Assembly (NCBI GenBank): GCA_003151735.1
Contig: PLYI01000095.1
Location: forward strand, 1-64,000
Direction of reading: 5' to 3'
DNA: 64,000 bases
Source: Candidatus Bathyarchaeota archaeon
Lineage (GTDB): Archaea; Thermoproteota; Bathyarchaeia; Bathyarchaeales; Bathycorpusculaceae
This document shows, in pieces, positions 45,428 to 62,782 of this stretch; position 1 is the first letter of the stretch, and each line of letters opens with the position of its first letter. The position numbers and the translations under genes were made by a program. The notes beneath the pieces were generated by a model. That model saw nothing but the letters and a program-made list of their open reading frames with translations, was not told where the DNA came from and did no database searches.

Positions 45428-45541
45428 CGGGGGTCCTTCGTTAGCTTTGATTGGATATTAAAGTAAATATAGTTTCTCCCGACAACATCACCCGCCAACT
45501 TTCCCTTTTTTCTATTTTTCTTTTGAGGAGTGCAACAATAC

Positions 45542-46672: not shown

Positions 46673-46697
46673 TTCCTCTTTTTATTTTTTGCACTAT

Positions 46698-47987: not shown

Positions 47988-47999
47988 GCTGTTTCTCTC

Positions 48000-48290: not shown

Positions 48291-48318
48291 TTTATTTTCT
48301 CCTTTTTGGTGTATGTTT

Positions 48319-48381: not shown

Positions 48382-48391
48382 TGAGTCGGTT

Positions 48392-48845: not shown

Positions 48846-48897
48846 TCGGATAACGTATTCTATTTTCTGTCTAGTCCTTTGGTGAGCAATTCCTAAA

Positions 48898-50106
48898 TTA
48901 TACTTCTGCATGGTCAAAATTTTTAGTTAAATAATTTAGAATACAATCATGGGCAACTCGTTCAAACCAATAAAAAGACGGAATATCCCTTTTAGCAATC
49001 ATTTTATTGTCACATGTAATCTGAGTTGTGATTTTTGCCGTTTCATAATTATCAAAAGCGCCCTTTGAAGGAGTTTTTCCGCTGTGGAAGAAAGCTGAAC
49101 GCAACTCAGAATAGATAGTTTTTAACGTCTTAGATAATTCATCTCTGGTTAGTTTTGAATCGGCATTATAGAGGTACCAATGTCTTAGAACATGTTCATA
49201 TGCTTCTTTTTCTTTTAAGGGCATATCTTCTTTATTTTTGAAAGCCTTTTCTAATCGTTTTATTGCGGAATCATTCAAAATAAACTTTAGATGTGTTATA
49301 CCTATTTTTTCATAATTTTCTCTCTCTTGTTCAAGATGTAAAAAATCTGGTTTTGTACTCACATCATGGAATCTTTGCTGGTCGTATCGATCTTCTTCTA
49401 CCGCTTTAGAGTCAAAACTGCTCCAAAAGTCTAATGGAAGAAAATCTTCTATAAACTTTATGAACTTAGCTTTTTCATCCATTCCAGAACCCTTGTAAAG
49501 TTTACTACTTATTGTGTCGATAGATGAAACTAATAACGAGTATGCCAGTCCAACATCCAATGGGCGTGTTAATTGAGAAAGTTGATATAAATGAAAACTT
49601 TTCATTAAAGTTTCAAACTTTACAGGATTTGTTTTTTTAAGTACATTAATAATCAGCAGAAATTCCAGATTTCTTTCTTTAATACTTTTTAATGAAGGAC
49701 ATTTAGGTGTCAAAAAACCTCCCTGATCAGATATAACCCTTATAAACGTATCAAAAGGTCTGCATAGATTCCCGTTTTCGTCATGACGGGAATGACGTCT
49801 TGAGGCTTGAAAACGTGAACGAAATGAAAAAGAGAGAATACTAGCTAACGCTTCAGAAAAATAAATTTCGCTTGATGGAAATACAGATTGAGGAATATTT
49901 ACAGATAATAAATTTGTTTGAAGATTGCCTAAACTGCTGATGCCTTCATCTTTTATAATGATTTTACCGCAAAGTGGAATACTTTCAGCAAGGGAACAAT
50001 CTGAAAAAATTACTGCACAGTAAGTATTACTAATTTCCAAATCACCATTTTGAAGTATTTCCCAGAGTTGCTCAGAGCAGATGTTAAATTCCAGATTTTC
50101 CCGCAT
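48898..50106 (-). CDS. HEPN-domain protein of the ApeA-like type (candidate defence RNase)
   Basis: The 402-residue protein starts with a beta-rich region (NLEFNICSEQLWEILQNGDL, SYRF-like FSFRSRFQASRRHSRHDENG). It continues with a helical domain (VGLAYSLLVSSIDTISSKLY) and ends with the HEPN motif R-x4-H in ELRSAFFHSGKTPSKGA, with a further helix WFERVAHDCILNYL. The R-x4-H is the ribonuclease signature of HEPN domains. ApeA-type HEPN proteins act in abortive infection by cleaving RNA. The beta N-terminus could be the sensor. It is a single gene with its own SD (AAGGGGAA). The antiviral role is inferred. Confidence 0.72.
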   Translation of the reverse strand: MRENLEFNICSEQLWEILQNGDLEISNTYCAVIFSDCSLAESIPLCGKIIIKDEGISSLGNLQTNLLSVNIPQSVFPSSEIYFSEALASILSFSFRSRFQASRRHSRHDENGNLCRPFDTFIRVISDQGGFLTPKCPSLKSIKERNLEFLLIINVLKKTNPVKFETLMKSFHLYQLSQLTRPLDVGLAYSLLVSSIDTISSKLYKGSGMDEKAKFIKFIEDFLPLDFWSSFDSKAVEEDRYDQQRFHDVSTKPDFLHLEQERENYEKIGITHLKFILNDSAIKRLEKAFKNKEDMPLKEKEAYEHVLRHWYLYNADSKLTRDELSKTLKTIYSELRSAFFHSGKTPSKGAFDNYETAKITTQITCDNKMIAKRDIPSFYWFERVAHDCILNYLTKNFDHAEV

Positions 50107-50204
50107 TATCGAAATTCCCCTTTTTGGATCATTACCTCTTTTTCGTTCTTTATATTTAAAATCTGCTTATCGCCAAATTTTATTTTTCTATAGAGGCTAA
50201 AGAC

Positions 50205-50756
50205 TTGAAAACTAAAAAGCTGAGTGCCAAAATTCTTATTACTATAGGATTAATTTCGTTATTTTTAGGTTTAGGTCTTATTGGCATGACTGTTTATGCT
50301 AATATTCAACCTTTTGGCGGACCTCTCGGCGTATTTAGTAGTCAAGATGGCCGCTATACTGTTATTTTTACCCCGACCCAAGCGACTCTCGCAATCAACC
50401 AATCGGTAACGTTTACAACCTCTTTTGGATCAGCGATTGACACAAACGCCCACAAAATAACTTATTCTTGGTTTGTTGACCAAAATCAAATACCAGTGAC
50501 AAGTTCTTCCTGTTTCCTGTTTTTTGAGAACCCTGGCATTCATCAAGTCAAGGTTGAAATAACGATTGATGGAATCCAAATTAACTGTGTTTCATCTTTA
50601 ACGGTAAAAAATCTCGATGGGTCCTTACCATCGGTTTCAAACCCAACTCCAACACCCGTAGCAACAACAGCATTGACCCCAACATACTCTCTTGAGGCAG
50701 GTTCAGTTCTCAGTATTTTTGGCGTCGTATCCATTTTGGTATCAAGAAAAGTCTAA
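50205..50756 (+). CDS. exported protein with a PKD/Ig-like domain and a C-terminal anchor
   Basis: The 183-residue protein has a basic N-terminus (KTKKLSAK) and a hydrophobic segment (ILITIGLISLFLGLGLIGMT). A beta-sandwich-like domain (FTPTQATLAINQSVTFTTSF, YSWFVDQNQIPVT, HQVKVEITIDGIQINCVSSL) follows, then a Thr/Pro-rich linker (NPTPTPVATTALTPTYS) and a final hydrophobic helix with RKV. This is a surface protein with two membrane spans. The TTG start follows TTTTCTATAGAGG, a form of the shared leader. Function unknown. Confidence 0.75.
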   Translation: MKTKKLSAKILITIGLISLFLGLGLIGMTVYANIQPFGGPLGVFSSQDGRYTVIFTPTQATLAINQSVTFTTSFGSAIDTNAHKITYSWFVDQNQIPVTSSSCFLFFENPGIHQVKVEITIDGIQINCVSSLTVKNLDGSLPSVSNPTPTPVATTALTPTYSLEAGSVLSIFGVVSILVSRKV

Positions 50757-50870
50757 CCTTTTTCTTAGATAAGGTTGGAAAGTTTTATTTTTCTATTGTA
50801 CGGTTGGAAACCCCTATCAGCCAAATAGGTTATCTTCAATTTCAATTTTGTTCCTCTTCCAACCGTTCAT

Positions 50871-50888
50871 CTATTTTTCTATTAGGTG
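50871..50888 (+). promoter_or_regulatory. shared T-rich leader (CTATTTTTCTATTAGGTG) before the 50900 gene
   Basis: This 18-base element sits directly before the ribosome binding site. The same element, with small changes, occurs upstream of 54004 (53981-53997), 56083 (56054-56073), 55126 on the minus strand (55151-55169) and 50205 (50179-50196), and an orphan copy lies at 50783-50799. The role could be a promoter part or an initiator; I cannot tell from the sequence alone. Confidence 0.5.
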
Positions 50889-50899
50889 ATTGAGAAGAC

Positions 50900-51202
50900 A
50901 TGGGTTATAATGCTCGTAGTGGTCATGGTTATGGCAATCAGAAACATGGTTCAGGTGGTTCTCGGTTTTCATGGAGAAAACAAAAAAAGCCTAAAGAGGA
51001 TGTTTACGTTAAAGACGATCCCGAGCCTAAAGTACCTGAAGAAACTATCGTTTGGACTCCTCGACCTTTAGCGCCTGGTGTGCAGGTCTTTTTGGCTAAG
51101 CCGACAACGTTGACTTCTAACGGTTGCAAATTTGTTCTATCGAATGATTTGACACAGCAAAATGAGTTGGCTTACCCAAACGGTTGCGCTATTGCCTATT
51201 GA
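50900..51202 (+). CDS. 100-residue hydrophilic protein
   Basis: The start ATG follows ATTAGGTGATTGAGAAGAC. The N-terminus is rich in Gly, Ser and Arg (GYNARSGHGYGNQKHGSGGS, RFSWRKQKKPKEDVYVKDD). Next comes a beta-like segment (PEETIVWTPRPLAPGVQVFL, FVLSNDLTQQNELAYPNGC). The last codons overlap the 3' end of the LarA-like gene on the minus strand by 14 bases. No family was recognised. A nucleic-acid-binding tail is possible. Confidence 0.55.
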   Translation: MGYNARSGHGYGNQKHGSGGSRFSWRKQKKPKEDVYVKDDPEPKVPEETIVWTPRPLAPGVQVFLAKPTTLTSNGCKFVLSNDLTQQNELAYPNGCAIAY

Positions 51203-52538
51203 GAATCTGCAGATATGCACAAGGATATACTATTACTTTGAGGCGTTTGCGCGGTTTTTGCTCCCTCTTAACTGTTTGGAGGATGTTTTTCCATTGCGAT
51301 GTTGGTTTGATACCTGGGATATCGATCGGAAGATCTATATTGTGTTTTCCGGGGCGATAGAGCCATATTGGGTTCTTGTTTTCAGTATTGTTGGAGGCTG
51401 AGTCTTCTTTGATTTGGGAAGATATTCTTTTCGCGAAAGAGTGGCCATAATAGATCATACCTTGACGCAACATTTCAGTGGTTCTGCCAAGGCCAAATGC
51501 CCGAAAAACTCGGAGCAGATGTCGTTCTCTGTGAAATCTCGGTGCATTTAAGAAAGGAAAAATGTTATGAAGACCTATACCCTCATCGCATGACGCGATG
51601 GCAATCCTTGACGAGTTTTGATTGCAGTCCCTGAATGGCTCGAATCCCTTCATTTGAGCAAAAGTGAGTGAAAGGTCACAAGGGTAGGTGTTTGAGATTA
51701 TAACGTCTGCATCTTTGCAAAATAACGTGCTAAATGTTTGACGACAAAAATCCGCCGCCGCTAGATAGTACTTCTGGGGATCACCGCAGTCGACACGGAT
51801 AATCTCTCTGTTTGGATTAATCTGAACTGATATAGTAGTGTTCAAACCTATCATATTTGCGATTTCGTTCAAATCTCTACGAAAACTGCCGTCGGTTTGC
51901 ACTTGACCCCACCCACAATATTTATGCCGGAAATGCAGATCAAAAATTGATTGTATCCCGAGAACGCCTACCGCCAGCTTCGTTCCGCCACCAAGACCTG
52001 CAGTGTAATTAGGGTATATGCCTCCTATCCCGATTACAAAATCGCTATTGAGAAAGGTACGGTCGACATACACGGGTGTGTCGAAAGAAGTTTTTCCTAT
52101 TTTGGCGTTTCCCTTGAAACAATCGTGAATAAGTAATCGACACGATTCAGCCGCTGTTCTCCCCACTTTTTTGCGAAACACTGCTGTGGTTGGTTTGCCG
52201 TGTGATCCTGTCGCCATCAAAATGGTAACATCTGTTAATGGCATATGGGCATCTCGGAACAATTCCAAGAGAATATCCATTATCGGTTCAGCAGGAGTTG
52301 GGCGGTTCAGGTCGTCGACCACTATAAGTGGGCGTGATTTTCCTTTGCAGAGACTCTGGATAGGTGCTTGCCCCACTGATCTCTGGAGACTCTCCGCTAT
52401 TTGATCCTTAGTTATTGGGGGTGGCGTTTGGGGCCACAAGATAGTAACATCCCAACTATTCGGTGTTTTTAGCTCAAGCTGGTGATCCCCATACCACGCC
52501 CCTGTGCGCAGATTCAATTTAGATTGTACGCCAATCAC
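51189..52538 (-). CDS. LarA-like (nickel-pincer racemase family) protein
   Basis: The 449-residue protein has PLIVVDDLNRPTPAEPIMDI, then VTILMATGSHGKPTTAVFRK, a LarA-like motif with the expected His. Further on come FVIGIGGIYPNYTAGLGGGT and KLAVGVLGIQSIFDLHF. These match the DUF2088/LarA N-terminal domain, which holds the nickel-pincer nucleotide in lactate racemase. LarB, LarC and LarE genes are absent from the window, so the substrate and even cofactor use are uncertain. It is 27 bases downstream of the methyltransferase gene, and both point the same way. Confidence 0.78.
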   Translation of the reverse strand: MIGVQSKLNLRTGAWYGDHQLELKTPNSWDVTILWPQTPPPITKDQIAESLQRSVGQAPIQSLCKGKSRPLIVVDDLNRPTPAEPIMDILLELFRDAHMPLTDVTILMATGSHGKPTTAVFRKKVGRTAAESCRLLIHDCFKGNAKIGKTSFDTPVYVDRTFLNSDFVIGIGGIYPNYTAGLGGGTKLAVGVLGIQSIFDLHFRHKYCGWGQVQTDGSFRRDLNEIANMIGLNTTISVQINPNREIIRVDCGDPQKYYLAAADFCRQTFSTLFCKDADVIISNTYPCDLSLTFAQMKGFEPFRDCNQNSSRIAIASCDEGIGLHNIFPFLNAPRFHRERHLLRVFRAFGLGRTTEMLRQGMIYYGHSFAKRISSQIKEDSASNNTENKNPIWLYRPGKHNIDLPIDIPGIKPTSQWKNILQTVKREQKPRKRLKVIVYPCAYLQILNRQ

Positions 52539-52565
52539 CTATTCTTCTTTATTCAAGGAATTAAT

Positions 52566-53429
52566 TCATACTTTCTTTGCTAAGACAATGTATTGTGCCC
52601 CGGTTGAGCGCAAAATTGGAAATCCGACGTCCGCGTATTCTTGCAGTTTCTGATTGATTTTGACTCCAATACGATCAGGAAACTCGATGTGGGGGAAAAG
52701 TAAGAACGGCCCAAACCCTAAATTTGTGTTCCTGACGTTTTTCAGATTTGCCTCATGGAGGTAAGCATTGAATTTCTGGATCGAATATGCATGAGGTTGA
52801 AAAACGTTTCGATTATTTTGTGAACCTACTCTGCTTAGTTTTTTTTTAAGCCATTCGCGGGTCGATTTAGCGAAGGGAGAACGCCGGGGATCAAATAGCC
52901 AGTTCAAACGAAACAGGTTGTCAGCATTGAGGATAACATATCCCCCATGTACCAATACACGTGCAATTTCATTCAATGCTTTCTTCACATCATAAAGCCA
53001 TGGAGTTACTCCCAAAGCAATAATCAGATCAAAAGATTGATTATGGAAAGCCAGATTATGGGCATCACCTATATTCAAATGAATTTTTTTGTCTAGACTT
53101 GTTTGCATCGCGTTATTTTGAGCAACTTTAATCATTTTGTGGGAATAGTCTAAGACCTCTACCGTAAATCCTCTCTTTGCAAGGGCTAATGCCATAAAAC
53201 CTGATCCGCAGCCGATTTCCAGAGCACGAGTATTATTTGGAAGAGATAACTCGGAAACATATCTGAGCGCAATGGCCAGCCGTTGCTGGTGAATAATTGC
53301 GAAAAGATCCTTTCGATAGTAGATCTGCGTCCAGAATGCTGATGAACCGTTGAAAAACTCACGTACGTGGTTTTGCTCAAGTTGGTCAATTCTGTTAAAC
53401 GTAGTCGAGTGGCAACAATCTTCTTCCAT
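52566..53429 (-). CDS. SAM-dependent methyltransferase (class I)
   Basis: The 287-residue protein shows the class I motifs: ALEIGCGSGFMALALAKRGF (motif I), VEVLDYSHKMIKVAQNNAM (acidic loop), HLNIGDAHNLAFHNQSFDLI and ALGVTPWLYDVKKALNEIAR. A C-terminal cap (IEFPDRIGVKINQKLQEYAD) may bind the substrate. Genes of this type near LarA-like proteins act in secondary-metabolite or cofactor pathways; that is inference. The start ATG follows AAGGAATG. Confidence 0.85.
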   Translation of the reverse strand: MEEDCCHSTTFNRIDQLEQNHVREFFNGSSAFWTQIYYRKDLFAIIHQQRLAIALRYVSELSLPNNTRALEIGCGSGFMALALAKRGFTVEVLDYSHKMIKVAQNNAMQTSLDKKIHLNIGDAHNLAFHNQSFDLIIALGVTPWLYDVKKALNEIARVLVHGGYVILNADNLFRLNWLFDPRRSPFAKSTREWLKKKLSRVGSQNNRNVFQPHAYSIQKFNAYLHEANLKNVRNTNLGFGPFLLFPHIEFPDRIGVKINQKLQEYADVGFPILRSTGAQYIVLAKKV

Positions 53430-54003
53430 TTATCATTCCTTGTTTCAGACAGATAAGTCAGCTGTCCCGAGTCTTGAAATCCAGCATGCCATTGAATCCA
53501 TCCTCAAAGAAGTATTCGGTTTTGAAATTGTCAAGTCAGAACGTGAGCTTGGCAGTGGAAAAGTAAATAATACTATTTCTGCAACTGGACTTTTTTGCGA
53601 CTCGGTGTTAGACTCTTTCTTATTTCTATTTCTATATGACACCAAACCCCGAGTTCAACAGTTGAACTCTGGATCGCATATTTAAGACTATGTGATTGCG
53701 TGAATGCGCTTACAAAACGCTAACTTAAAAATAGAGCCAGAACATGCCGGGCAGAGACACTCCTTACAAATTAATAGCCCTTTTAGAGGGAAACAACTTT
53801 GCATAGTTTGGGTATTTCAGTTTTTTCTCTTCATTGTTTTCAGAGCAAATAATGTGGGCTTTTGGAGCCTCAAATATGCCTAGTCGTTTTCCATGATGTA
53901 TGTTAAAAATAGGTAGAACAGCCTAAAGGAAAAACCTAAAACCTTTAAGCTGCCTACCTACACAAGAAAAAACAGATTGTTATTTTTCTATTAGGTGCGT
54001 TAA
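53430..54003. other. gap with a possible plus-strand gene fragment
   Basis: On the plus strand, 53455-53685 encodes TDKSAVPSLEIQHAIESILK, EVFGFEIVKSERELGSGKVN and NTISATGLF, which looks coding but has no clear start of its own. It overlaps the region upstream of the methyltransferase gene. The rest of the gap (53690-53970) shows no long frame. The shared T-rich leader (53981-53997) lies at its end. Confidence 0.35.
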
Positions 54004-54399
54004 TTGGAAGAGAATAACAAATCAGATGGTGGAGCGAACCATTCTATTTGGATAAACACGGCTGCCTTTAATCAGTTTAAAACCAATAGCAGAATGCTGC
54101 ACAAGAAGTCTGCGAGTGAAAGGATAGAGGCCTTTGTCATTGCTGAGAACATTAAGGATAATGGTGAGGGAGCCAACGTTGATTATTCCTCTCGGTTAGA
54201 GGATCAAACAATATCTGAGCTAAGAACATGTGAGGTAGAGCTGGGGAAACTTAGGAAGATAGTGGAAGCTGATGATAAGAGCTATGAGAGAATGCTCCGA
54301 ACTGCTACAGATGCTGGAGTTAAACGTATGCAGGGCAACAGAGATCGTAAGCAATCTGGCAGGGTGCTTCTCTCGGAAGTTGATGATGCTCTTATGTAA
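54004..54399 (+). CDS. 131-residue hydrophilic protein, MobC- or RHH-like
   Basis: The start TTG 54004 follows TATTTTTCTATTAGGTGCG. The product has NHSIWINTAAFNQFKTNSRM, LHKKSASERIEAFVIAENIK and a long helix (SELRTCEVELGKLRKIVEAD, KSYERMLRTATDAGVKRMQG). The early strand-and-helix order fits a ribbon-helix-helix DNA-binding domain, and the rest looks like a coiled coil. It overlaps the next small gene by 17 bases. It may be part of a mobile element, and the role is open. Confidence 0.6.
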   Translation: MEENNKSDGGANHSIWINTAAFNQFKTNSRMLHKKSASERIEAFVIAENIKDNGEGANVDYSSRLEDQTISELRTCEVELGKLRKIVEADDKSYERMLRTATDAGVKRMQGNRDRKQSGRVLLSEVDDALM

Positions 54400-54544
54400 G
54401 CTGTATGCGGTTGAAGTTGCTGGTGATGATTCCGAACTCTGGGATTATATGCTACAGTTCACGGAGCTGTTACGCAATAAGTTGAAGTACAAGAAGGTAC
54501 TCAGAGAAGTAAGAGCTAAGAAACATAGCGTTAATCCCTCTTAA
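54383..54544 (+). CDS. 53-residue small protein overlapping the previous gene
   Basis: It starts at ATG 54383 within the end of the 131-residue gene (GATGATGCTCTTATGTAA reads both). The product MLLCKLYAVEVAGDDSELWD, then YMLQFTELLRNKLKYKKVLR, is amphipathic-helical with a basic end. The 17-base overlap fits translational coupling. It could instead be a downstream segment of a frameshifted single gene. No family is known. Confidence 0.5.
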   Translation: MMLLCKLYAVEVAGDDSELWDYMLQFTELLRNKLKYKKVLREVRAKKHSVNPS

Positions 54545-54949
54545 CTCCTTTTCTTTTTTGCCGTCATACATTTTTAATGGGATACTTTGTGGTTAACCTA
54601 GGCCCTTAAGGTTTTTTTCTTTCAATTTTTTTTTGAATGCTATTAGCATTAGCTTCTAATAAAAACACCCCCTAACTAATATTAAGAGAGGAAACAGGCT
54701 GTAAGCATGGAGAGATGGAAAGGTCGGGGGGATTTACGAACATGCGCAATCTGCATTTCTGACTTTATCTAGCGCTAGTGGAATTTTATTGTGTTTGCTG
54801 TGGGGGTTGTAATTAGAACTGAGACATATTCGTTTATGGGCTTTCCATGTTGAAATGCCACATTCATAACATGAATTTACGCGTTTACCTTATAAGCATG
54901 GAGCTTTCCCATGCCTCAAGCAAGAATAAAAAATAGGCTTTGCAAAGCC
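54545..54949. other. gap with a GCATGG hairpin and a possible attachment-site match
   Basis: No gene is seen in these 405 bases. GTAAGCATGG at 54701-54710 is repeated exactly at 61411-61420, around the integrase stop. The bases after it are also similar (AGAGATGG and GAGAATTGG). A hairpin GCATGG-AGCTTTC-CCATGC lies at 54896-54914, behind the end of the minus-strand AbrB gene. T-rich runs (CTTTCAATTTTTTTTTG) occur near 54622. It may be the left edge of the integrated element. Confidence 0.4.
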
Positions 54950-55126
54950 TTACAATGCCCTAAAAAGGGGTTTACACGCTTTGATTACAGTGCGTTCTTT
55001 ATCTATGATAAATTCAAGCTCAGCATTTTCCTCAAGCCCAAAATAACGAATTACAGACTCGGGAATTTCTACAACCAATTTGCCATCAAGTTTCGTTATA
55101 TTCTGGAAACGGTCATTATCCGCCAA
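54950..55126 (-). CDS. AbrB-like regulator in the integrated element
   Basis: The 58-residue protein starts at TTG 55126 behind GGAGGTGAAAGG. It reads NDRFQNITKLDGKLVVEIPE, SVIRYFGLEENAELEFIIDK and ERTVIKACKPLFRAL, an AbrB-type swapped-hairpin domain. The frame is open further up, but that part contains the shared T-rich leader (55151-55169). It is divergent from the HTH gene at 55331, with two palindromic sites between them. Confidence 0.75.
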   Translation of the reverse strand: MADNDRFQNITKLDGKLVVEIPESVIRYFGLEENAELEFIIDKERTVIKACKPLFRAL

Positions 55127-55193
55127 CCTTTCACCTCCACGCCTCACAATGTCTAATAGAAAAAATAGAATGCAGCAAAGCAATAGTCCATGA

Positions 55194-55291
55194 GTCTAAG
55201 CCTTAGACGTTGGCTTCGACGGATGCTTCAATGACGCTTTATTGTTGGAACGCAAAGCAATCCATCGATAAAGAAAGTCTAAGCCTTAGAC
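55194..55291. promoter_or_regulatory. two identical palindromic operator sites GTCTAAGCCTTAGAC
   Basis: The 15-base sequence GTCTAAGCCTTAGAC, with 7-base perfect arms, occurs at 55194-55208 and at 55277-55291. The two lie in the divergent region between the AbrB gene and the HTH gene. A half site (CCTTAGAC) is also inside the HTH gene near its end (about 55990). Such paired sites suit cooperative binding of a dimeric regulator, most likely the 229-residue HTH protein. They may control both genes or an origin. Confidence 0.65.
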
Positions 55292-55330
55292 AAGGTAAAT
55301 ATGCTTTTTTCTTGTAGGAGTAATGTAAGA

Positions 55331-56020
55331 ATGCAGATAGAAAAGGAAAAACAGAATGTAGTTGACTTAACTAAAATGCCTCAAAACCTACCAATCATGG
55401 GACACGCCTCACACGAGACGTTAACCCTGATAACTGAAGGCATAGAAGATAGAATACCCCAAATTGACCCAGATGAAGCCATGACTTTGTTGGTCAACTT
55501 GGATAACTTACCGATCAGAGCAAGGGCCTTTATTACTAAGCTTCAGCCAAATGCCGTAGCTGTGTTTGATAAGGAAGGCACGTTATACCTTGAAATCAAC
55601 CTCAATATACTACGTGATCTCACTTGTTTCCAGATGTTCCTTAGCTTTTATCATAGCCTACTTTCAGAGTTTCCAGAATTGAAGCCTTATATTTCACTTT
55701 GCGAAGCCACTGAACATGTAAAAGTGATTCCTCCGAAAGGCGCACCTCCAGAACATCTTAGGGAAGCTTGGCTGACAAAACACTTCTACGTTACGCTCAA
55801 CGTCACCGACTTACTTATCGCAAAACTCAAAAGCCATTTTGCGCCCGACGAGTATCCAGCGCCAGCGAGCTTCAGCTACTTATTAGCACATGGATTCGAT
55901 AAAGAAGCTCTTTCAACCACTTTCAAGGTTTCAAGAGCAACTCTTTTCAATTATCAAGCCAAAACAAAGAAATCTAACGACAATCCAGACCTTAGACACC
56001 CTGAAGAAGCTATAGACTAA
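55331..56020 (+). CDS. HTH regulator or replication-control protein of the element
   Basis: The 229-residue product starts at ATG 55331 (GGAG 12 bases upstream). The N-terminal two thirds look like a mixed alpha/beta sensor or dimer domain (MTLLVNLDNLPIRARAFITK, LYLEINLNILRDLTCFQMFL). The C-terminus has a helix-turn-helix (FSYLLAHGFDKEALSTTFKV, SRATLFNYQAKTKK). It is adjacent to two palindromic sites. It could repress its own promoter and the AbrB gene, or start replication. No family is known. Confidence 0.7.
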   Translation: MQIEKEKQNVVDLTKMPQNLPIMGHASHETLTLITEGIEDRIPQIDPDEAMTLLVNLDNLPIRARAFITKLQPNAVAVFDKEGTLYLEINLNILRDLTCFQMFLSFYHSLLSEFPELKPYISLCEATEHVKVIPPKGAPPEHLREAWLTKHFYVTLNVTDLLIAKLKSHFAPDEYPAPASFSYLLAHGFDKEALSTTFKVSRATLFNYQAKTKKSNDNPDLRHPEEAID

Positions 56021-56082
56021 GCCGTTTCGGAACTATCTAAAAAATACATTATCTATTTTTCTATTAAGAGGTGTATGCAATA

Positions 56083-56301
56083 ATGCAAGTAAACAAAAAT
56101 ATTGAAAGTGAAATGGAACCAAAAATGCTCGACCTTTTGGAAAAAGAAAACATGCCCCTGAGTATCGGTTTCGTAGCCTTTAACTTGAAAATAACCTGGC
56201 AAACTGCGAGAGCTCTCTTATTGAAAATGAGCTTAACCGGAAAAATCACGGCGTTAGAAACAAGCAAGGGCTTCATGTTCCAGAAAAAACAACGCAATTA
56301 A
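56083..56301 (+). CDS. 72-residue winged-helix-like protein
   Basis: ATG 56083 follows AAGAGGTG, and the shared T-rich leader (56054-56073) lies before it. The product has a helical start (NIESEMEPKMLDLLEKEN) and a winged-helix pattern (MPLSIGFVAFNLKITWQTAR, ALLLKMSLTGKITALETSKG). This is a small DNA-binding protein. It stands directly before the palindrome island, so it may bind there. Confidence 0.7.
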   Translation: MQVNKNIESEMEPKMLDLLEKENMPLSIGFVAFNLKITWQTARALLLKMSLTGKITALETSKGFMFQKKQRN

Positions 56302-56406
56302 ACACTAAATTTCCTTCCCCCTATTTTATTCCAAATTTTATTTACTATTTGAAAAACGTTTCTAATTGAAAATATTAAGCACAACAACTTTTCCACAAAC
56401 TGTGAG

Positions 56407-56848
56407 TTAACCCAGGTTAATAGTTATAGTTAAGCGATAAAACAACACGTTGTTTTACGCTTTAGTTAACAAATTTATAGCCATAAGATGGCTCGATACC
56501 GAGAGCTCTCGGATTGAATAGACGTTGGCAACGGCGTTGCTAAACATATCGTAATACATTATATAAGTCAACCAGGTTGACAAGGTCAACGACTCAAATG
56601 TTCACCCTTAACAACGCCGTTGTTAAATTACCTGAATTTGTTATCGGGGAACTCCTCTCTTCTCTTGCTTAAAGTCCGCACGTGCGTACTATCACTTTTT
56701 AAGTCAATGTTGTCGCAACGTTTGTGATTCATTGTCCTGAGAGTCAAAGCTTTCTGAGGCTGAGTTGTCACGTGTCAACCGATTAGGCAATAGTTCTAAT
56801 AGCTAAAAGTTGACCCAGGTCAACGGCTCAAAGTTTGCACGTGCAAAC
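56407..56848. repeat. island of at least ten palindromes (candidate origin or partition site)
   Basis: Perfect or near-perfect palindromes follow one another in about 440 bases without a gene: TTAACCCAGGTTAA (56407), AAAACAACACGTTGTTTT (56439), CCGAGAGCTCTCGG (56499), GCAACGGCGTTGC (56528), GTCAACCAGGTTGAC (56567), TTAACAACGCCGTTGTTAA (56608), CGCACGTGCG (56677), GTTGTCACGTGTCAAC (56764), GTTGACCCAGGTCAAC (56809) and GTTTGCACGTGCAAAC (56833). Three share the form GTYAACC-AGGTTRAC, and three carry CACGTG. A direct repeat AGGTCAACGRCTCAAA occurs near 56584 and 56818. It is probably a cis-acting site of the element. Confidence 0.75.
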
Positions 56849-57025
56849 AAATGTGGTATATGCCACAAATCTTGTCATTAATTTGGGTTCGCCTGGCGAA
56901 CTGGTCTCTTTTCTTTTGTACTCATCGATTAGTAAAATGGTTATCAGCATTACTTCTTGTTCGTGGATTATGCATTTTTTCTTTTTTCTTATGCAAGGTT
57001 TTGAGGCCTTGCAGGATTAAAGAAC

Positions 57026-57208
57026 TTGGACAACAAAGAACCTAATAAAATAACAATTAAAATTAGCGGACAAAGAACCGCTGTTCTAAACACCCTGAAA
57101 AGAATCGAAGGCGTTTTCCCATTATTTTTAGAAGGCAAAGAAAAACCAAATGATGATGGAACTGGCATCCATGTTTTTTTGGTTGTTGCTTGCCCCGAGG
57201 AGGCTTAG
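57026..57208 (+). CDS. 60-residue small protein of the element
   Basis: It starts at TTG 57026. The product (NKITIKISGQRTAVLNTLKR, IEGVFPLFLEGKEKPND, then HVFLVVACPEEA) looks like a beta-alpha-beta fold. It is the first of a chain of four small genes (57.0-57.9 kb) with gaps of at most 2 bases or overlaps. A role in the element is likely, but there is no family match. Confidence 0.6.
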   Translation: MDNKEPNKITIKISGQRTAVLNTLKRIEGVFPLFLEGKEKPNDDGTGIHVFLVVACPEEA

Positions 57209-57210
57209 AG

Positions 57211-57405
57211 TTGCCTTTCAATTTTGATATGGACCTTAATGGCTTCTTGCCGAAAGCGGAACCGAAAATACAATTTTGCCATGAATGCCATTTTTTTACG
57301 AGATACACGGCGAGCCACTGTAGGTTAGGGCTTTTCACTCAAGCATCTTGGAAAAGATGTAGGCAAGCTCTGCCAATCAAAAACGGATTAAAGGAAGGGT
57401 ATTAG
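57211..57405 (+). CDS. 64-residue Cys-rich protein of the element
   Basis: TTG 57211 lies 2 bases behind the previous stop and behind CCGAGGAGGC. The product (FNFDMDLNGFLPKAEPKIQF, then CHECHFFTRYTASHCRLGLF, TQASWKRCRQALP) has four Cys and three His and may bind zinc. It is tightly packed with its neighbours. Function unknown. Confidence 0.6.
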   Translation: MPFNFDMDLNGFLPKAEPKIQFCHECHFFTRYTASHCRLGLFTQASWKRCRQALPIKNGLKEGY

Positions 57406-57407
57406 CT

Positions 57408-57767
57408 TTGGATCGCAAGCAGATTGAGTTCTTAGTGAAGCTCCGCGACGCTCATACGATGGCAGCCGAAGCCGTAAATGATTATCTGGAAACCTTCGCT
57501 CCAAAAGAAGAAAAAACAGCCGTTAACGAAGAAATATTTAGTATCCTAAAGTTTGACCTTCAGCAAGATACTAAACTTGGCGAGTTTGAAGTTGCATATC
57601 AGCAAAACAACATAGCAGAGAAATTCCAACACGCTTTTGAGGTTCTCTCTAAGTCAAACGCAACAATCCAGAGCAGGTACCACGGCAAAGAATATGCTTA
57701 TTCATATTGGGTTTACGGCGAAGGCAAGATTTACAGACAAAAACTCAAAGGAGTTACCTCACATTGA
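57408..57767 (+). CDS. 119-residue protein of the element
   Basis: TTG 57408 follows the previous stop by 2 bases. It reads RKQIEFLVKLRDAHTMAAEA, VNDYLETFAPKEEKTAVNEE and IFSILKFDLQQDTKLGEFEV; mainly helical and charged. The stop overlaps the next TTG as TTGA at 57764-57767. It resembles small proteins of archaeal plasmids, but no family is recognised. Confidence 0.65.
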   Translation: MDRKQIEFLVKLRDAHTMAAEAVNDYLETFAPKEEKTAVNEEIFSILKFDLQQDTKLGEFEVAYQQNNIAEKFQHAFEVLSKSNATIQSRYHGKEYAYSYWVYGEGKIYRQKLKGVTSH

Positions 57768-57868
57768 AGATAAATTCAACGTGTGCAACTTGCAAGGATA
57801 ATTGCTGCGAAATACGCGCCGATTGCGTCGATGATGAAAGAGTAACACAAGAGGTTCTTCAACATTGA
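57764..57868 (+). CDS. 34-residue Cys-rich micro-protein
   Basis: This very short gene begins at TTG 57764 (TTGA overlap) and ends at TGA 57866-57868, which again overlaps the TTG of the next gene as TTGA. The product KINSTCATCKDNCCEIRADC has five cysteines in 20 residues and could fold around zinc or iron. The overlaps on both sides are strong evidence that it is translated. Confidence 0.55.
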   Translation: MKINSTCATCKDNCCEIRADCVDDERVTQEVLQH

Positions 57869-58248
57869 CCGAGCAGAGCAATGAATGGCTAGAAGAACCC
57901 GCAATGCCTAAACCCGAGGATTTTAAGAACCATGAAAACTATGAGTTTGCCTTCAACGAATACAAACAAAAATTGACAACCTATCAAGCAAGAATTAGAC
58001 TACACAATGATTGCAAAAAATACACAGAAGACGAAATAAAAGAAAAAGCTGAACAAGAAGAAGAACTGCTCAAAAGTCCGTTCTTTAGATTAATGGTTGA
58101 ATGTGACGAAAAAGGAGAGCCTAAACAACGCAGACAATTCCCAGACTATGAATTTTTCACTCCATACAACGAAGAAGAACAAAAACTCGGATATGGAAAA
58201 TCGGCTGTAAGAGATCCATTCAAAACAGCAAAGTCTCAGAGTGGTTAA
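57865..58248 (+). CDS. N-terminal part of a D5/SF3-type primase-helicase protein (before a -1 frame change)
   Basis: The 127-codon frame starts at TTG 57865 (TTGA overlap) and has a charged N-terminal region (TEQSNEWLEEPAMPKPEDFK, NYEFAFNEYKQKLTTYQARI, EDEIKEKAEQEEELLKSPFF) and then KLGYGKSAVRDPFKTAK. Its stop at 58246-58248 is followed, in the -1 frame, by a smooth continuation (VSEWLNQEFAFKTDLETGIL). The -1 frame is open from 58230 and lacks its own start, so the two parts are almost certainly one protein. Slippage could occur at GCAAAG; an indel is the simpler alternative. Confidence 0.65.
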   Translation: MTEQSNEWLEEPAMPKPEDFKNHENYEFAFNEYKQKLTTYQARIRLHNDCKKYTEDEIKEKAEQEEELLKSPFFRLMVECDEKGEPKQRRQFPDYEFFTPYNEEEQKLGYGKSAVRDPFKTAKSQSG

Positions 58249-59525
58249 ACCAGGAGTTTGCTTTTAAAACAGATTTAGAAACAGGGATACTCTACATCTA
58301 CGATGGCAGAAGTTGGATACCAAACGCAGAAGGATATGTCAAGAAAATCGTTTCAATAATACTGGGAAAAGAAGACCGTGAAAACCACTTCAAAAACATA
58401 TTATTCTCACTCCAAGGTCTAACACTTTGCAACGTAACATTCAGTCAAAAAATAGCTTGCGACAACGGATTACTTAACGTTGAAACTCAAGAGACAACGC
58501 CGTTCAGCAAAAAAGAAATGCCATTTCACCAAATCTCAGTAAAGTTTGACCCAACCACTAAATGCCCAAATTGGGAAGCATTCATATCTCAAGTTGTCAA
58601 CGGAGACGATTTAAAGACAATTCAAGAATGGAGCGGTTTCTTACTTTTACCAGATTACCGCTTTCATAAATTGTTGTGGATACAGGGTGAAGGTCGCAAT
58701 GGCAAAGGAGTTTGGCAAAGAACAATGGAAGCAATCTTAGGACAAACAAACGTCTCAAACATTGGCCTAGAAGAATTTGATGGATCTCACCGATTTTCTA
58801 TGGAAAGACTATACGGCAAACTATTCAATCCATGCTCAGAACCACGCACAAACAAAGAACTACAAACCAACCTACTGAAATACGCAACAGGACAAGACAC
58901 CATAGAAGCAGAAATCAAAGGTCATCAAAAACGAATACATTTCAGAAACTACGCAAAGATTACAGTTTTAGCCAACCGTTTCCCAAAAGTCAACGACCAA
59001 ACATTAGCATTTAAAGAACGTAGGCTTTTCATAAAGTTTCCAAATGAATTTACTGGAAGCAACCAAATACAGAACATAGAGCAAAATTGGTTAACAATCA
59101 ACGATGAAAGAAGCGGCATATTAAACTGGATGCTTCAAGGCTTACAACGCCTCTTAGAGCAAGGATACTTCACTGAATCAAAGACACAGCGAGAAACAGA
59201 AGCAGCTTTTCTACGAGCAAGCGACACAATAAGTGGTTGGCTTCACGAAGTAGGAATCAAAGACAAAAACAGAGTAACCACAAGAAGCGAAGCAACAGAA
59301 TCATACAAGAGTTATTGTGAAGTCTATGGGTTAATAACTGAAAGTGAACAGGAGTTTACAAAGAAACTAAAAGAAGTTTCATGGATTACTGTTTGCTCAG
59401 TTAAGAAGCCTAAACAGGAACGTGCTTGGAAAGGCTTAGGATTACTCAGAATAGATGATGATGGCAAGATAACAGATACAGTGGATACACAGGATACACT
59501 TTTACATGCCTCTTTACCCCTGTAA
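58230..59525 (+). CDS. D5/SF3 helicase core of the integrated element
   Basis: The frame is open from 58230 and has D5-type parts: an N-terminal module (WLNQEFAFKTDLETGILYIY, GKEDRENHFKNILFSLQGLT), then the ATPase. The ATPase has Walker A WIQGEGRNGKGVWQRTMEAI, an acidic strand (LYGKLFNPCSEPRTNKELQT), a sensor-like KITVLANRFPKVNDQTLAFK and an arginine region (ERRLFIKFPNEF). This is the replicative helicase family of archaeal plasmids and viruses. The first ATG in the frame is 58518, but coding sequence begins much earlier, so the frame is probably joined to the 57865 frame by a shift. Confidence 0.82.
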   Translation, partial: KVSEWLNQEFAFKTDLETGILYIYDGRSWIPNAEGYVKKIVSIILGKEDRENHFKNILFSLQGLTLCNVTFSQKIACDNGLLNVETQETTPFSKKEMPFHQISVKFDPTTKCPNWEAFISQVVNGDDLKTIQEWSGFLLLPDYRFHKLLWIQGEGRNGKGVWQRTMEAILGQTNVSNIGLEEFDGSHRFSMERLYGKLFNPCSEPRTNKELQTNLLKYATGQDTIEAEIKGHQKRIHFRNYAKITVLANRFPKVNDQTLAFKERRLFIKFPNEFTGSNQIQNIEQNWLTINDERSGILNWMLQGLQRLLEQGYFTESKTQRETEAAFLRASDTISGWLHEVGIKDKNRVTTRSEATESYKSYCEVYGLITESEQEFTKKLKEVSWITVCSVKKPKQERAWKGLGLLRIDDDGKITDTVDTQDTLLHASLPL

Positions 59526-59591
59526 TTACAGAAAAGATCTTAAATAATATACAGGATAGAAAGGGTGTATCTTCTGTATCCTCTGTATCTG
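59473..59591 (+). repeat. 27-base inverted repeat near the helicase 3' end
   Basis: CAGATACAGTGGATACACAGG (from 59473) and the reverse complement of GTGTATCTTCTGTATCCTC (59565-59591) are about 85 percent complementary, with some 65 bases between. The left arm encodes TDTVDTQDT in the helicase frame, and the right arm VSSVSSVSD in the -1 frame. It can form a stem-loop in DNA or RNA and surrounds the second frame change. Confidence 0.5.
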
Positions 59592-59851
59592 ATGAAAGCA
59601 AATTAAAGATTGTCGCTGAAGAATCTGGATTAAGGCGCATAGAAGCAAATAATCTTGTAAGTGCTAAACGGTTTAGGCCTAAACCTGGTGTTCTCTGCCA
59701 AACAATAGATCACGACTTGATTTGCGCTAAAGAAGCTGAATATTCGATAAATGGAAATCGTTATTGTCCGGAACATTTCGATGATGAAAAAGAGAACTTG
59801 CGGAAAATAGGGAAAACTGTTTGTGTAGAATGGGCAGAGGAGGCGGTTTAG
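59523..59851 (+). pseudogene. C-terminal domain of the D5 protein in the -1 frame (no start codon of its own)
   Basis: From about 59523 a frame runs to TAG 59849-59851 without any ATG, GTG or TTG before the conserved part. It reads TEKILNNIQDRKGVSSVSSV, SDESKLKIVAEESGLRRIEA, then CQTIDHDLICAKEAEYSING and YCPEHFDDEKENLRKIG. It has several cysteines that could make a zinc site. It follows the helicase frame by a -1 step, like the first break. It therefore appears to be the C-terminal zinc domain of the same protein, either broken or reached by frameshifting. Confidence 0.5.
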
Positions 59852-59971
59852 TTGGACCCTAAAACCTTAGCTGCTTTAGAGCAAGCGCAATTCGATATAC
59901 GCCTCAACAATCTTTCTAAAACTTTCAAGGACATTGACCAACGAAGTAAAAAGAAGGAGGAGTTACATTGA
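59852..59971 (+). CDS. 39-residue small protein
   Basis: TTG 59852 directly follows the previous TAG. The product DPKTLAALEQAQFDIRLNNL, then SKTFKDIDQRSKKKEELH, is a charged helix. The stop TGA overlaps the next TTG (TTGA, 59968-59971), and its last codons hold the next ribosome site (AAGGAGGAG). It is part of the coupled gene chain that ends with the integrase. Confidence 0.5.
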   Translation: MDPKTLAALEQAQFDIRLNNLSKTFKDIDQRSKKKEELH

Positions 59972-60282
59972 CGTATGTAGGATTCGTTCAATGTCCATAT
60001 TGTCCTTCACTTTTTGTGGATAAAGCCGAACTTGAAAAACACCTTAGCGGAAAGGCTGAGAGCAAATATCATCCACCATGCAGTAAAGGCGACTATAACA
60101 ACTGTGAGAAGTGCCTACACCCAAAAAAGCAACTATGCAAACGTGACGTCTATTTTTGCCGAGACGACCTGACATGCCTGAAGTACAGCTTATTTAATTA
60201 TCATTGTTGTCATGGCGGCGGCCCAGCTTGCAATCTTTGGCGACGTAAAACAAACCAGATAATTGAAACTGGAGGGGTCTAA
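59968..60282 (+). CDS. Cys/His-rich zinc-finger protein
   Basis: The 104-residue product starts at TTG 59968 behind AAGGAGGAG. The first finger is VGFVQCPYCPSLFVDKAELE with the His in EKHLSGKAESKYH, a C2H2 pattern. Then come PPCSKGDYNNCEKCLHPKKQ, LCKRDVYFCRDDLTC, and HCCHGGGPAC, with many further Cys and His. It probably binds DNA or assists the integrase, whose start follows at 60284. Confidence 0.7.
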   Translation: MTYVGFVQCPYCPSLFVDKAELEKHLSGKAESKYHPPCSKGDYNNCEKCLHPKKQLCKRDVYFCRDDLTCLKYSLFNYHCCHGGGPACNLWRRKTNQIIETGGV

Positions 60283-60283
60283 A

Positions 60284-61414
60284 TTGGAACCCCAAGCCCA
60301 AACCGCTAACCTTGTTTGCCCTTCATGCGGCAGCGAGAAATTCTTTAAAGACGGCATCCGGAAGCTCTTAAACGACACAGAAAAGCAACGTTATGTTTGC
60401 CGTGTATGTAGCTACAGATACACGTCACCCAATAGCTTAAATTCTATCCTTGACAACTCCGAGAGTAGCCAAATATGCGCCAACATGGTGAAAAATTTGG
60501 ACCCAACCGCAGAATTAAAGACTGTGGTGGGTGATGAAAAAACAAATTTAATCGCTTACGCATGGCAACAAAAGAAACGAAACATACAAGACAACACAAT
60601 CGCAAACCGCATGTACTTACTTGGACAGCTCATAAAATTAGGCGTTGACTTACTTAACCCCGATTCGTTTGAAACTGTCGTAGCTACGGAACCAATGAGT
60701 AAAGCAAAAAAACGAAACTTTGTATCTGCTTACCGTTCATACACTAAAGTCAATAAAATCTCCTGGGAACCCATAAAAGTCGGCTATGAACCAAAACAGC
60801 CGTTTATTCCAACAGGTGAAGAAATATCAGCCTTAATTCATGCAGCCGGTAAACGTTTAGCCACATTCTTACAAGTCCTTGCAGATACAGGTGCTAGAGT
60901 AGGGGAAGTATGCCAGCTTCAATGGACCGATGTCAACGTAAAAAACTGCACTATAGCCATTAACAACCCTGAAAAACACTCAAGAGCGCGAACCCTAACG
61001 GTGACACAGAAAACAATCGCTATGATCCAAGCCCTTCCTAACCCTGACAAATATGGAAACCGAATCTTTAACGCTAACCCCGATACGATAGCGCAAGGAT
61101 TCTCTGAATTAAGAAAACGCCTAGCTGAAAACCAAAAAAACCCAAGGTTCAAACAAATACACCTTCATACCTTCCGACACTATTACGCTTGCACATTATA
61201 CAGCAAAACAAAGATTCTAAAAACTGTTCAAGATGCTTTAGGCCATAAATCCATAACGAACACAGAAATCTATACGAAACTTGTCGTTTTCCATGAAGAA
61301 AAATATTACTCTGCAACCGCTAAAACTGTGGAAGAAGCATGTCAGCTAATCGAGGATGGATGGAGCTATCACGTTGAGATTGACGGAATTAAAATCTTCA
61401 GGAAGCCTAAGTAA
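60284..61414 (+). CDS. tyrosine recombinase (integrase)
   Basis: The 376-residue protein starts at TTG 60284 behind GGAGGGG. It has an N-terminal zinc ribbon (VCPSCGSEKFFKDGIRKLLN, YVCRVCSYRYTSPN), a core-binding helical region, and the catalytic domain. The catalytic Arg lies in LADTGARVGEVCQLQWTDVN, His-x-x-Arg in LHTFRHYYACTLYSKT, His in ALGHKSITNTEIYTKLV, and the nucleophile is Tyr in that same segment. The C-terminal tail (QLIEDGWSYHVEIDG) matches the remnant at 4931-5047. It is the last gene of the element, and its stop overlaps a candidate attachment repeat. Confidence 0.92.
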   Translation: MEPQAQTANLVCPSCGSEKFFKDGIRKLLNDTEKQRYVCRVCSYRYTSPNSLNSILDNSESSQICANMVKNLDPTAELKTVVGDEKTNLIAYAWQQKKRNIQDNTIANRMYLLGQLIKLGVDLLNPDSFETVVATEPMSKAKKRNFVSAYRSYTKVNKISWEPIKVGYEPKQPFIPTGEEISALIHAAGKRLATFLQVLADTGARVGEVCQLQWTDVNVKNCTIAINNPEKHSRARTLTVTQKTIAMIQALPNPDKYGNRIFNANPDTIAQGFSELRKRLAENQKNPRFKQIHLHTFRHYYACTLYSKTKILKTVQDALGHKSITNTEIYTKLVVFHEEKYYSATAKTVEEACQLIEDGWSYHVEIDGIKIFRKPK

Positions 61415-61502
61415 GCATGGGAGAATTGGTGTATTTGTTGCAGAAATTGACAACTAAAGTAAATAAACGATGCCACATTAAAGTAGAAAATGGCGCGTAA
61501 AT

Positions 61503-62213
61503 ATGGCGGTTAAGCCGACCAGACATGGAGAATACAAAGAAGTAGCTTATTCCAGCACACGCTGGGAACAGTTGAAGGCGCTGAGAGGCAGAGCAGTTTG
61601 GGTCATAGCGGCATTAGAAGCGTTTCATTTGCGGTCGCTGACGCATGGCAGCATAGCCAGAGGCGACGTAAACTTAGGCAGCGACGTGGATGTGTTCATT
61701 CCTGAAGTGCAGAGCAGTTTTTTGGTGGAAACCGCCCTTGAAAAAGCCAAAATCCCCATCAACTCGCGGTTTATCGTTCAAGCTACACCATCCTACGCCA
61801 TGAAAGCACACATCGAAATCTACGAGTGCACTACGGTTTCGTTTCCTTTGATGGAGATGCGGCGTGTTGAGAGGGAATTTTACAGATTCGGCGGAGAAGT
61901 AAATCTGGCTCAGCTCAAAGAGAATGTGCGGGTAGCAGGGGTGGATAAGCGGCTCATGCTTATAGAACCCACGGAGAAGGGGCATGTGGAAAGCAGCGTT
62001 GTTGGCAAGGAAGAGTTTGCCGCTAAAATCTTGGGAGTTGCTGCTGAAACTGTGTTAGATAGGGTTCATGCTTTGTTGAAGCGTGACGCGGTTGGCAGAA
62101 CAGGTGTCTTCGTAAAGAGAGAGTTGGCTGAGGACGAAACTTTTGAGTTAGCTCTAAAAAAACTCTCTGAGTTGAACCCTGCGGTTCGGCGTAGAATGAA
62201 AAAAGATGTTTAA
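61503..62213 (+). CDS. archaeal nucleotidyltransferase (Pol beta superfamily)
   Basis: The 236-residue protein has the nucleotidyltransferase signature HGSIARGDVNLGSDVDVFIP (Gly-Ser, then Asp-x-Asp), with RGRAVWVIAALEAFHLRSLT before it. A helical C-terminus follows (EFAAKILGVAAETVLDRVHA, ALKKLSELNPAVRRRM). It resembles an archaeal family of predicted nucleotidyltransferases of unknown substrate. The stop overlaps the end of the convergent TBP gene by 4 bases. Confidence 0.82.
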   Translation: MAVKPTRHGEYKEVAYSSTRWEQLKALRGRAVWVIAALEAFHLRSLTHGSIARGDVNLGSDVDVFIPEVQSSFLVETALEKAKIPINSRFIVQATPSYAMKAHIEIYECTTVSFPLMEMRRVEREFYRFGGEVNLAQLKENVRVAGVDKRLMLIEPTEKGHVESSVVGKEEFAAKILGVAAETVLDRVHALLKRDAVGRTGVFVKRELAEDETFELALKKLSELNPAVRRRMKKDV

Positions 62214-62782
62214 GAGGGGTAGTAGATGAGTTCTTTTTCTTCTAGTAGCGCTTGGATTTTGTCGACTGCTTCGTAGACTTGCTCTTCTTTTTTGGCGCCT
62301 ACACAGACGAGTTTTCCAGCTGAGAAGATTAAGAACACCACTTTTGGTTCATCCATGCGGTAAACTGCACCTGGAAACTGTTCAGGTTCATACATGACTT
62401 TGCTGAGTTTGTAGACGAGGCTTTCAAGGTCAATTTCGCCGCCAAGTTCAGCTGAAGCAACGATGTTTTGGATGTTTACGACTGGTTTTTCTGTAATTTG
62501 GATGCCTTCGCCGCGGAGTTCTTTAACGACTTTTTCTACTGCGCTGCGGGATTCTTTTTCTGATTTAGCGCCTGTGCAAACCATTTTGCCGGTTCCGAAG
62601 ATTAAGGTGGCTGTTTTTGGTTTTTTTAGTCTGAAAACAAGGCCTGGAAAAACGCTTGGGTTGTATTCGGTTTGCGGGAATTTTTCCACGATTTTTTGCA
62701 AATCGATTTTCTGGTTAAGTGAGACTGAGGCTACGATGTTTTGGATCTTGATGATCGGTTTTCTTTTACTCATGTCACTCAC
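62210..62782 (-). CDS. tbp: TATA-box-binding protein
   Basis: The 190-residue protein has two direct repeats of the TBP core. The first has KIQNIVASVSLNQKIDLQKI, PGLVFRLKKPKTATLIFGTG and KMVCTGAKSEKESRSAVEKV. The second has NIQNIVASAELGGEIDLESL, PGAVYRMDEPKVVFLIFSAG and KLVCVGAKKEEQVYEAVDKI. It binds promoter TATA boxes and recruits TFB and RNA polymerase. Start GTG 62782, or ATG 62773; the nearby TATA box suggests a leaderless or nearly leaderless message. Confidence 0.97.
   Translation of the reverse strand: MSDMSKRKPIIKIQNIVASVSLNQKIDLQKIVEKFPQTEYNPSVFPGLVFRLKKPKTATLIFGTGKMVCTGAKSEKESRSAVEKVVKELRGEGIQITEKPVVNIQNIVASAELGGEIDLESLVYKLSKVMYEPEQFPGAVYRMDEPKVVFLIFSAGKLVCVGAKKEEQVYEAVDKIQALLEEKELIYYPS

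Follow-up and report, generated by a model that had tools for sequence, protein, structure and literature searches.

A noncoding region unusually dense in short palindromes, located within an integrated, apparently replicative element of a Bathyarchaeia genome, is likely to be the transcriptional control region of that element, combining promoters with an array of two-fold operator sites. Replication of the element probably starts not there but at inverted iterons at the 3' end of its helicase gene. Both assignments come from sequence patterns, structure prediction, and genome comparison. The DNA analyzed, referred to here as the window, is 64,000 nucleotides long, and the palindrome island lies inside an insertion of ∼16 kb (positions 45459-61465). 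The individual features are listed in Table 1.

Table 1. Palindromic sites, genes, and boundary repeats of the element (window coordinates; a dot marks features with no assigned strand)
Feature	Coordinates	Strand	Basis or remark
Palindrome island (putative operator-promoter region)	56407..56901	.	9 palindromes vs ∼0.4 expected
GTTAACCCAGGTTAAT	56406..56421	.	near member of GTY..RAC family
TAAAACAACACGTTGTTTTA	56438..56457	.	9-bp arms; CAAC-N2-GTTG geometry
AGCCATAAGATGGCT	56479..56493	.	palindrome scan
CCGAGAGCTCTCGG	56499..56512	.	perfect palindrome
GCAACGGCGTTGC	56528..56540	.	CAAC-N3-GTTG geometry
TATA-like box TTATATAA	56559..56566	+	pattern only; putative promoter role
GTCAACCAGGTTGAC	56567..56581	.	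GTY..RAC family; directly abuts TATA-like box
GTTGACAAGGTCAAC	56576..56590	.	overlaps 56567 site
Direct repeat copy 1 AGGTCAACGACTCAAA	56583..56598	+	repeat comparison
TTAACAACGCCGTTGTTAA	56608..56626	.	9-bp arms; CAAC-N3-GTTG geometry
GTCCGCACGTGCGTAC	56674..56689	.	GTY..AC ends, CACGTG center, one mispair
GTTGTCACGTGTCAAC	56764..56779	.	GTY..RAC family, CACGTG center, one mispair
GTTGACCCAGGTCAAC	56809..56824	.	GTY..RAC family
Direct repeat copy 2 AGGTCAACGGCTCAAA	56817..56832	+	repeat comparison
GTTTGCACGTGCAAAC	56833..56848	.	perfect; GTY..RAC family
TGTGGTATATGCCACA	56852..56867	.	near-palindrome
GTTCGCCTGGCGAAC	56887..56901	.	GTY..RAC family; scores also as terminator-like stem
GTCTAAGCCTTAGAC copy 1	55194..55208	.	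between divergent genes 54950 and 55331
GTCTAAGCCTTAGAC copy 2	55277..55291	.	between divergent genes 54950 and 55331
AbrB/MazE-like small protein, divergent from 55331	54950..55183	-	weak: Pfam E 0.025, PHROG E 7e-4
Orphan protein, 229 aa, C terminus helix-turn-helix-like by eye	55331..56020	+	poor model
Small winged-helix protein, 76 aa, candidate binder	56071..56301	+	predicted structure
SF3 (DUF5906, D5-like) replication helicase	58203..59525	+	profile and frame analysis
Candidate replication origin: inverted 9-bp iterons (GATACANNN), AT-rich core	59473..59591	.	sequence layout
Tyrosine recombinase, zinc-ribbon-like N-terminal part	60263..61414	+	Pfam PF00589 E 2e-22
Left flanking 11-bp repeat TAAAGTAAATA	45459..45469	+	sister-genome comparison
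Right flanking 11-bp repeat TAAAGTAAATA	61455..61465	+	sister-genome comparison

The palindrome island and its host element

The palindrome density reported in the initial annotation is well above chance: positions 56400-56905 contain 9 palindromes with arms of at least 6 bp and spacers of at most 2 bp, whereas 500 dinucleotide shuffles averaged 0.40 and never exceeded 4, and the total rises to 11 once spacers of up to 3 bp are counted. This is the densest palindrome cluster among the 375 sequences scanned (∼3.3 million bases, overlaps included), in which no 500-base stretch apart from copies of the island held more than 7, the number reached in an AT-rich locus (L212). The best 500-base window at the island has a Poisson score of 9.2 (minus log10 p, uncorrected), compared with a maximum of 4.5 across 179 other sequences scanned. 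Among 79 intergenic gaps from 24 loci, the island alone stands out, with 10 palindromes versus 0.94 expected; the remaining 78 gaps hold 47 versus 37.4 expected, no clear enrichment. Several short motifs recur as well. The three CACGTG-centered copies noted earlier are indeed present (0.09 expected from the rest of the window), GTCAAC occurs 6 times (0.33 expected, on the same basis), and CAAC/GTTG occurs 16 times (5.8 expected), although the density of the last is not unique (18 per 500 bases at the island, 19 at 16380). The 16-base direct repeat, AGGTCAACGRCTCAAA, was likewise found at 56583 and 56817, the copies being identical at 15 of 16 positions.

The start of the island at 56407 stands as first described, but its end had been set too early, at 56848: the GTTCGCCTGGCGAAC site at 56887 extends it to 56901. 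The view that it holds no gene agrees with the reading frames, the longest one fully inside coding for 47 aa, with frames of 61 and 64 aa overlapping the right edge. Coding DNA was rejected as an explanation, since the region does not look coding and no notable open reading frame covers it. An insertion sequence or other repeated element was rejected as well, as the island DNA has no match in the other genomes of the class or in phages; matches within its own genome are short ones only. The region is not a described RNA family either, an Rfam search of positions 54500-58500 having returned no matches up to an E value of 1. A gapped self-alignment had pointed to a very long nested palindrome, which was discarded because the ungapped symmetry at the island centers is matched at many places in the window.

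The ∼16-kb insertion was delimited by comparison with five sister genomes (G008, G029, G007, G023, and G011), in each of which the matches to positions 44001-45469 and 61452-62300 overlap or lie less than 50 bases apart. As the flank matches adjoin in all five, the window must carry an insertion, and this insertion is absent from all five sister genomes examined. An alternative pair of attachment repeats at 53880 and 61280 (16 of 17 positions identical) was dropped, since the five genomes set the boundaries near 45459 and 61455. The recombinase gene ends 40 bases from the right repeat; its match to a zinc-binding domain (E value of 1.7e-5) is below the cut-off of that domain. The apparent cargo of the element includes a LarA-like racemase domain protein, a methyltransferase, and a thiamine-binding protein. 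The same genome carries a sister element (G000:C22, L372) with 86-87% identical DNA at positions 45510-45755 and 59543-59855, which lacks the island. This sister element (L372, positions 2-5122) is smaller and encodes a related integrase and, seemingly, only the C-terminal part of the helicase.

Two-fold sites and their candidate binders

Operator arrays of plasmid and provirus regulators are a known general kind of control region. The island resembles them in having clustered dyads next to a small winged-helix gene and before the replication genes, with a TATA-like box inside; it differs in its unusual density, its several types of site center, and a site family defined solely by the outer GTY..RAC bases. 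The placement before the replication genes, as first described, is right in that the island lies upstream of them, but the two do not adjoin, the open helicase frame beginning ∼1.3 kb rightward.

The spacing of the inverted repeats bears directly on their nature. With arms of at least 6 bp, the island has 11 repeats with spacers of 0 to 3 bp, where the whole window would predict ∼0.56, and lacks any with spacers of 4 to 20 bp (∼2.0 predicted); with arms of at least 5 bp, the respective numbers are 13 versus 1.9 expected and 8 versus ∼8. This preference for short spacers, with none of 4 to 20 bp, points to two-fold sites for dimeric proteins rather than hairpins. That the palindromes instead work as hairpins or cruciforms, in the DNA or in an RNA leader, appears quite unlikely. 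The island does fold better than its shuffles (z of -5.7 as DNA and -5.8 as RNA), the paired repeats AGTTAACCCAGGTTAA and AGTTGACCCAGGTCAA differ by matching changes in both arms, and three island sites score as terminator-like stems (5 such stems in the 1.3 kb scanned, shuffles having a mean of 1.2). The fold scores, however, are a consequence of the palindromes themselves, and hairpins should not favor spacers of 0 to 2 bp over those of 3 to 6 bp; with arms of at least 6 bp, the island has no spacer of 4 to 20 bp.

Repeated dyad-symmetric sites above chance are what an operator array would display, and many of those in the island share their ends. The family had been described as GTYAACC-AGGTTRAC with three copies, but the strict pattern fits the 56567 site alone: the 56406 site has one extra central base and a mismatch at the last base, and the 56809 site reads GTTGACC..GGTCAAC. 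GTY-N9/10-RAC, at 15 to 16 bp, is a better description. GTY..AC ends are found in 7 of the 14 near-palindromes of 15 to 16 bp in the island, the other half falling outside the GTY family. The family is also represented upstream of the neighboring regulator-like gene 55331, by the two identical copies at 55194 and 55277. In the region 55150-56905, 9 of 18 such near-palindromes have GTY..AC ends; the rest of the window has 3 among 110 (Fisher p of 4.5e-7, a value that is too kind because the motif was picked post hoc and two sites share bases), and 20 related loci have 9 among 531. Of the three window sites beyond this region, the one at 53653 lies within the element but outside both control regions. 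The second recurring geometry, CAAC-N2/3-GTTG, is seen in the sites at 56438, 56528, and 56608, and the 56567 site fits both geometries. A 19-mer at 56207, within the winged-helix gene, is 89% similar to the 56499 site. The two 15-bp palindromes at 55194 and 55277 are 83 bp apart, an arrangement as in a two-operator switch.

The regulator gene that would be expected beside an operator array is represented by 56071, as judged from its winged-helix model. The best of five single-sequence models of its product has a pLDDT of 82 (53-67 for the others) and an H-H-H-E-E order of secondary structure elements. A Foldseek search with this model gave a best E value of 2.3e-3, with none at 1e-3 or better, and the list contains varied winged helices, including the Z-alpha domain of ADAR1 and MarR-type regulators. 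Weak relatives of the protein are encoded in 4 of the 89 other genomes of the family. The 55331 protein has no relative in these 89 genomes or in phages, and its structure model is poor (pLDDT of 40); a search of viral contigs for relatives of this protein and of the integrase of a related element (L129) led nowhere.

Under the proposed mechanism, regulator dimers of the element would bind the island sites, most likely those of the 56071 winged helix, perhaps together with the 55331 protein. Once bound, these regulators would either keep the replication genes to the right repressed or adjust their expression, acting through a promoter close to the TATA-like box at 56559, and replication would begin at the inverted iterons found where the helicase gene ends. 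Since the site centers (0 to 3 bp) and interiors vary, either one tolerant protein or several binders would be needed. A more specific and rather unlikely version is that a single winged-helix dimer reads the outer GTY..RAC ends plus the symmetry or shape of sites in which the two arms have changed in parallel inside these ends, so that 7 to 13 different palindromes form one cooperative switch. We know of no description of such end-plus-symmetry site recognition for archaeal elements.

A candidate origin at the 3' end of the helicase gene

Positions 59473-59591, at the 3' end of the rep helicase gene, are laid out like an iteron origin: the 9-bp repeats GATACAGTG, GATACACAG, and GATACACTT face inverted copies across an AT-rich core, which gives one iteron set on either side of it. 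Folding scores along 6 sequences (360 windows) flagged the helicase 3' end, and the two lowest scores of the window DNA are a z of -4.0 at 59400 and -3.6 at 56400 (the island). For pieces of L024 and L357 that lack the right arm, the z values (1.07 and 0.13) are uninformative. Among solved structures, those closest to the helicase profile are the "DNA primase" chains 7ola and 7om0, which we take to be a SaPI Rep. The helicase frame is broken in this assembly (57865-58248 and 58203-59525), and no start codon precedes 58518 in the downstream frame. The frame is continuous in the helicase relatives of L024 and L129; the break may reflect an assembly error, recoding, or decay.

The layout recurs in related archaea. 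The helicase matches comprised 34 rows, of which 24 and a further 6 were tested; those left out were G031, G229, and G034:C96, which have no DNA past the gene, and the second piece of G000:C3, which represents the same gene. The best inverted repeat at the rep end beats every control window of its own locus in 20 of 24 cases and ties with controls in the other 4 (G035:C35, G012, G000:C3, and G000:C22), the number of control windows ranging from 1 to 89 and being small for some loci. Arm identity at a lag of 9 is 0.76; other lags give 0.20-0.28, and the best control arms reach 0.30. A mean lag-9 arm identity of at least 0.6 was seen in 21 of the 24 and 2 of the 6 loci, that is, in 23 of 30 testable Bathyarchaeia helicase loci, the window included. 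These loci are partly dependent: three G034 copies and G035:C17 are almost identical in their repeat, and G021 is related to G035:C35. The loci that miss are G246, G000:C3, G244:C70, G038, G014, G244:C3, and G027, and G012 passes with a low-complexity sequence that is no better than its own controls. As a background, 23 of 639 tiled windows over 14 loci pass the lag test, the rep ends themselves included. The core is AT-richer than its own locus in 22 of 24 loci. In a hand-picked subset of 48 of 155 more distant loci, 9 pass with a repeat score of 17 or more as an added requirement, and two of these have the same arms.

Further iteron sites at the helicase 3' end include those in L024 (10076-10177), L357 (5442-5586), L129 (7350-7437), and L372 (3446-3545). 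The iterons differ between most elements, and these loci are candidate Rep-origin pairs with a layout like that of phage satellites. Nearly the same 22-nt arms are found at four loci in two genomes of one related genus (G034:C3, C43, C78, and G035:C17), which suggests one element family in several copies.

This arrangement has parallels outside the Bathyarchaeia. In phage-inducible islands, two iteron sets surround an AT-rich core at the rep 3' end (PMC6092414). The Rep-ori regions of SaPI/PICI and SCCmec resemble the candidate origin, not the palindrome island, in that two iteron sets flank an AT-rich core directly at the Rep helicase 3' end (PMC6092414, PMC7581432). By comparison, the candidate origin of the window is archaeal, has 9-bp iterons, and has its left iteron set inside the rep frame and the right one past the stop codon. 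In the Sulfolobus plasmid pRN1, the origin is a large stem-loop close to where the gene for its SF3-helicase Rep ends (PMC4234260). Here too the likeness is to the candidate origin rather than the island, the layout being conserved and the sequence not; pRN1 differs in that its Rep has a prim-pol domain and its stem-loop begins 54 bp downstream of the gene, and 9-bp iterons are not part of the portion of the pRN1 description available (PMC4234260).

The island in related elements and its alternative readings

According to the initial annotation, retention of the genes in related elements without the palindromes would count against its reading, and this is largely the case: helicases that are 62% (G009) and 54% (G021 and G035) identical to that of the window lie in other, island-free contexts. 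The island DNA has no match in 255 other genomes of the class or in 50,697 phage records, and its occurrence in a single genome is the main weakness of the operator assignment. A milder cluster in about the same place is found in L357 (genome G082), where a small open reading frame, apparently noncoding DNA, frames of 102 and 109 aa, the helicase, and the integrase follow one another. Four of its palindromes lie in the gap itself, and one more is found where the next frame begins (uncorrected score of 3.8); the gap is overlapped by short frames and by one of 205 aa on the opposite strand. The 109-aa frame is weakly similar to the frame at 57408 of the window (28% over 46 residues, E value of 1e-6 in a single comparison), but the 83-aa frame of L357 at the place of the 76-aa winged helix has no sequence similarity to the latter. 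In L129 (genome G035), the site CGTCAACCTAGCAGGTTGACG, with arms as in the 56567 site, is found upstream of the helicase gene, which may be due to chance. The pattern GTCAACC-N0-5-GGTTGAC occurs in 3 of 32 genomes of the genus (the one studied here, G001, and G024), the G001 match lying in apparently coding DNA. The 15-base repeat has exact matches in 92 stretches of viral contigs, a raw count that led no further. A viral contig with an AT-rich palindrome cluster (L022) was set aside, as its genes look like those of a bacterial phage. No described archaeal site with this mix of palindromes was found in the literature searched, which took in part of the subscription journals; PMC7145576, PMC10848311, and PMC8371274 do not alter the assignments.

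Of the three roles considered in the initial annotation (origin, partition site, or operator array), the last agrees best with the dyads, the shared end motif and its recurrence upstream of the regulator-like gene nearby, the predicted winged helix, and the TATA-like box. An origin or auxiliary origin element, with the palindromes bound by the helicase-type Rep, is unlikely. It would suit the position upstream of the replication genes, and only two 80-mers of the element are less stable than the adjoining segment 56296-56375; the L129 site also has the same arms, and the helicase and the integrase are the DNA-binding proteins clearly present in both elements. The local GC skew changes sign near the island, but equal shifts occur elsewhere in the window. 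This role is weakened chiefly by the better candidate, of recurring layout, at the helicase 3' end, with its inverted 9-bp iterons here and in most of the testable loci and its AT-richer core. The island does not have the sequence of an iteron origin, as GATACACAG, GATACAGTG, and even the core GATACA are absent from it. Since the island lacks iterons and the closest relatives have iterons but no island, the island is better taken as an operator-promoter region and the helicase 3' end as the likely origin.

A partition (centromere-like) or stability site bound by the small winged helix, in the manner of AspA in plasmid pNOB8, is very unlikely and went unsupported, in spite of the winged-helix gene that adjoins the clustered palindromes. 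In pNOB8, dimers of the winged-helix protein AspA bind a 23-bp palindrome and spread (PMC5120986). The two cases are alike in having a small winged-helix dimer (predicted here), palindromic sites, and an archaeal element. However, AspA has a single nucleation palindrome, whereas the island has many different ones, and no ParA or ParB family, as would be expected with a partition site of this type, was found by Pfam among 20 different proteins of the element, a scan that took in part of the small open reading frames. It is highly improbable that the island is a relic, in which unrelated operators or site families have gathered in a decaying element. The broken helicase frame and the restriction of the island sequence to one among all genomes searched would agree with decay, but several sites are perfectly symmetric, which speaks for selection that is ongoing or recent.

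To our knowledge, little is known of the replication and control of Bathyarchaeia mobile elements. If the operator-array and origin assignments are both correct, the window combines a small control region, in which operators are unusually dense, with a candidate origin at a separate place. Iterons of this kind are seen in most related archaeal loci examined, in a layout that resembles the origins of bacterial phage satellites, and this likeness would make a comparison of Rep-origin systems across the two domains directly testable.
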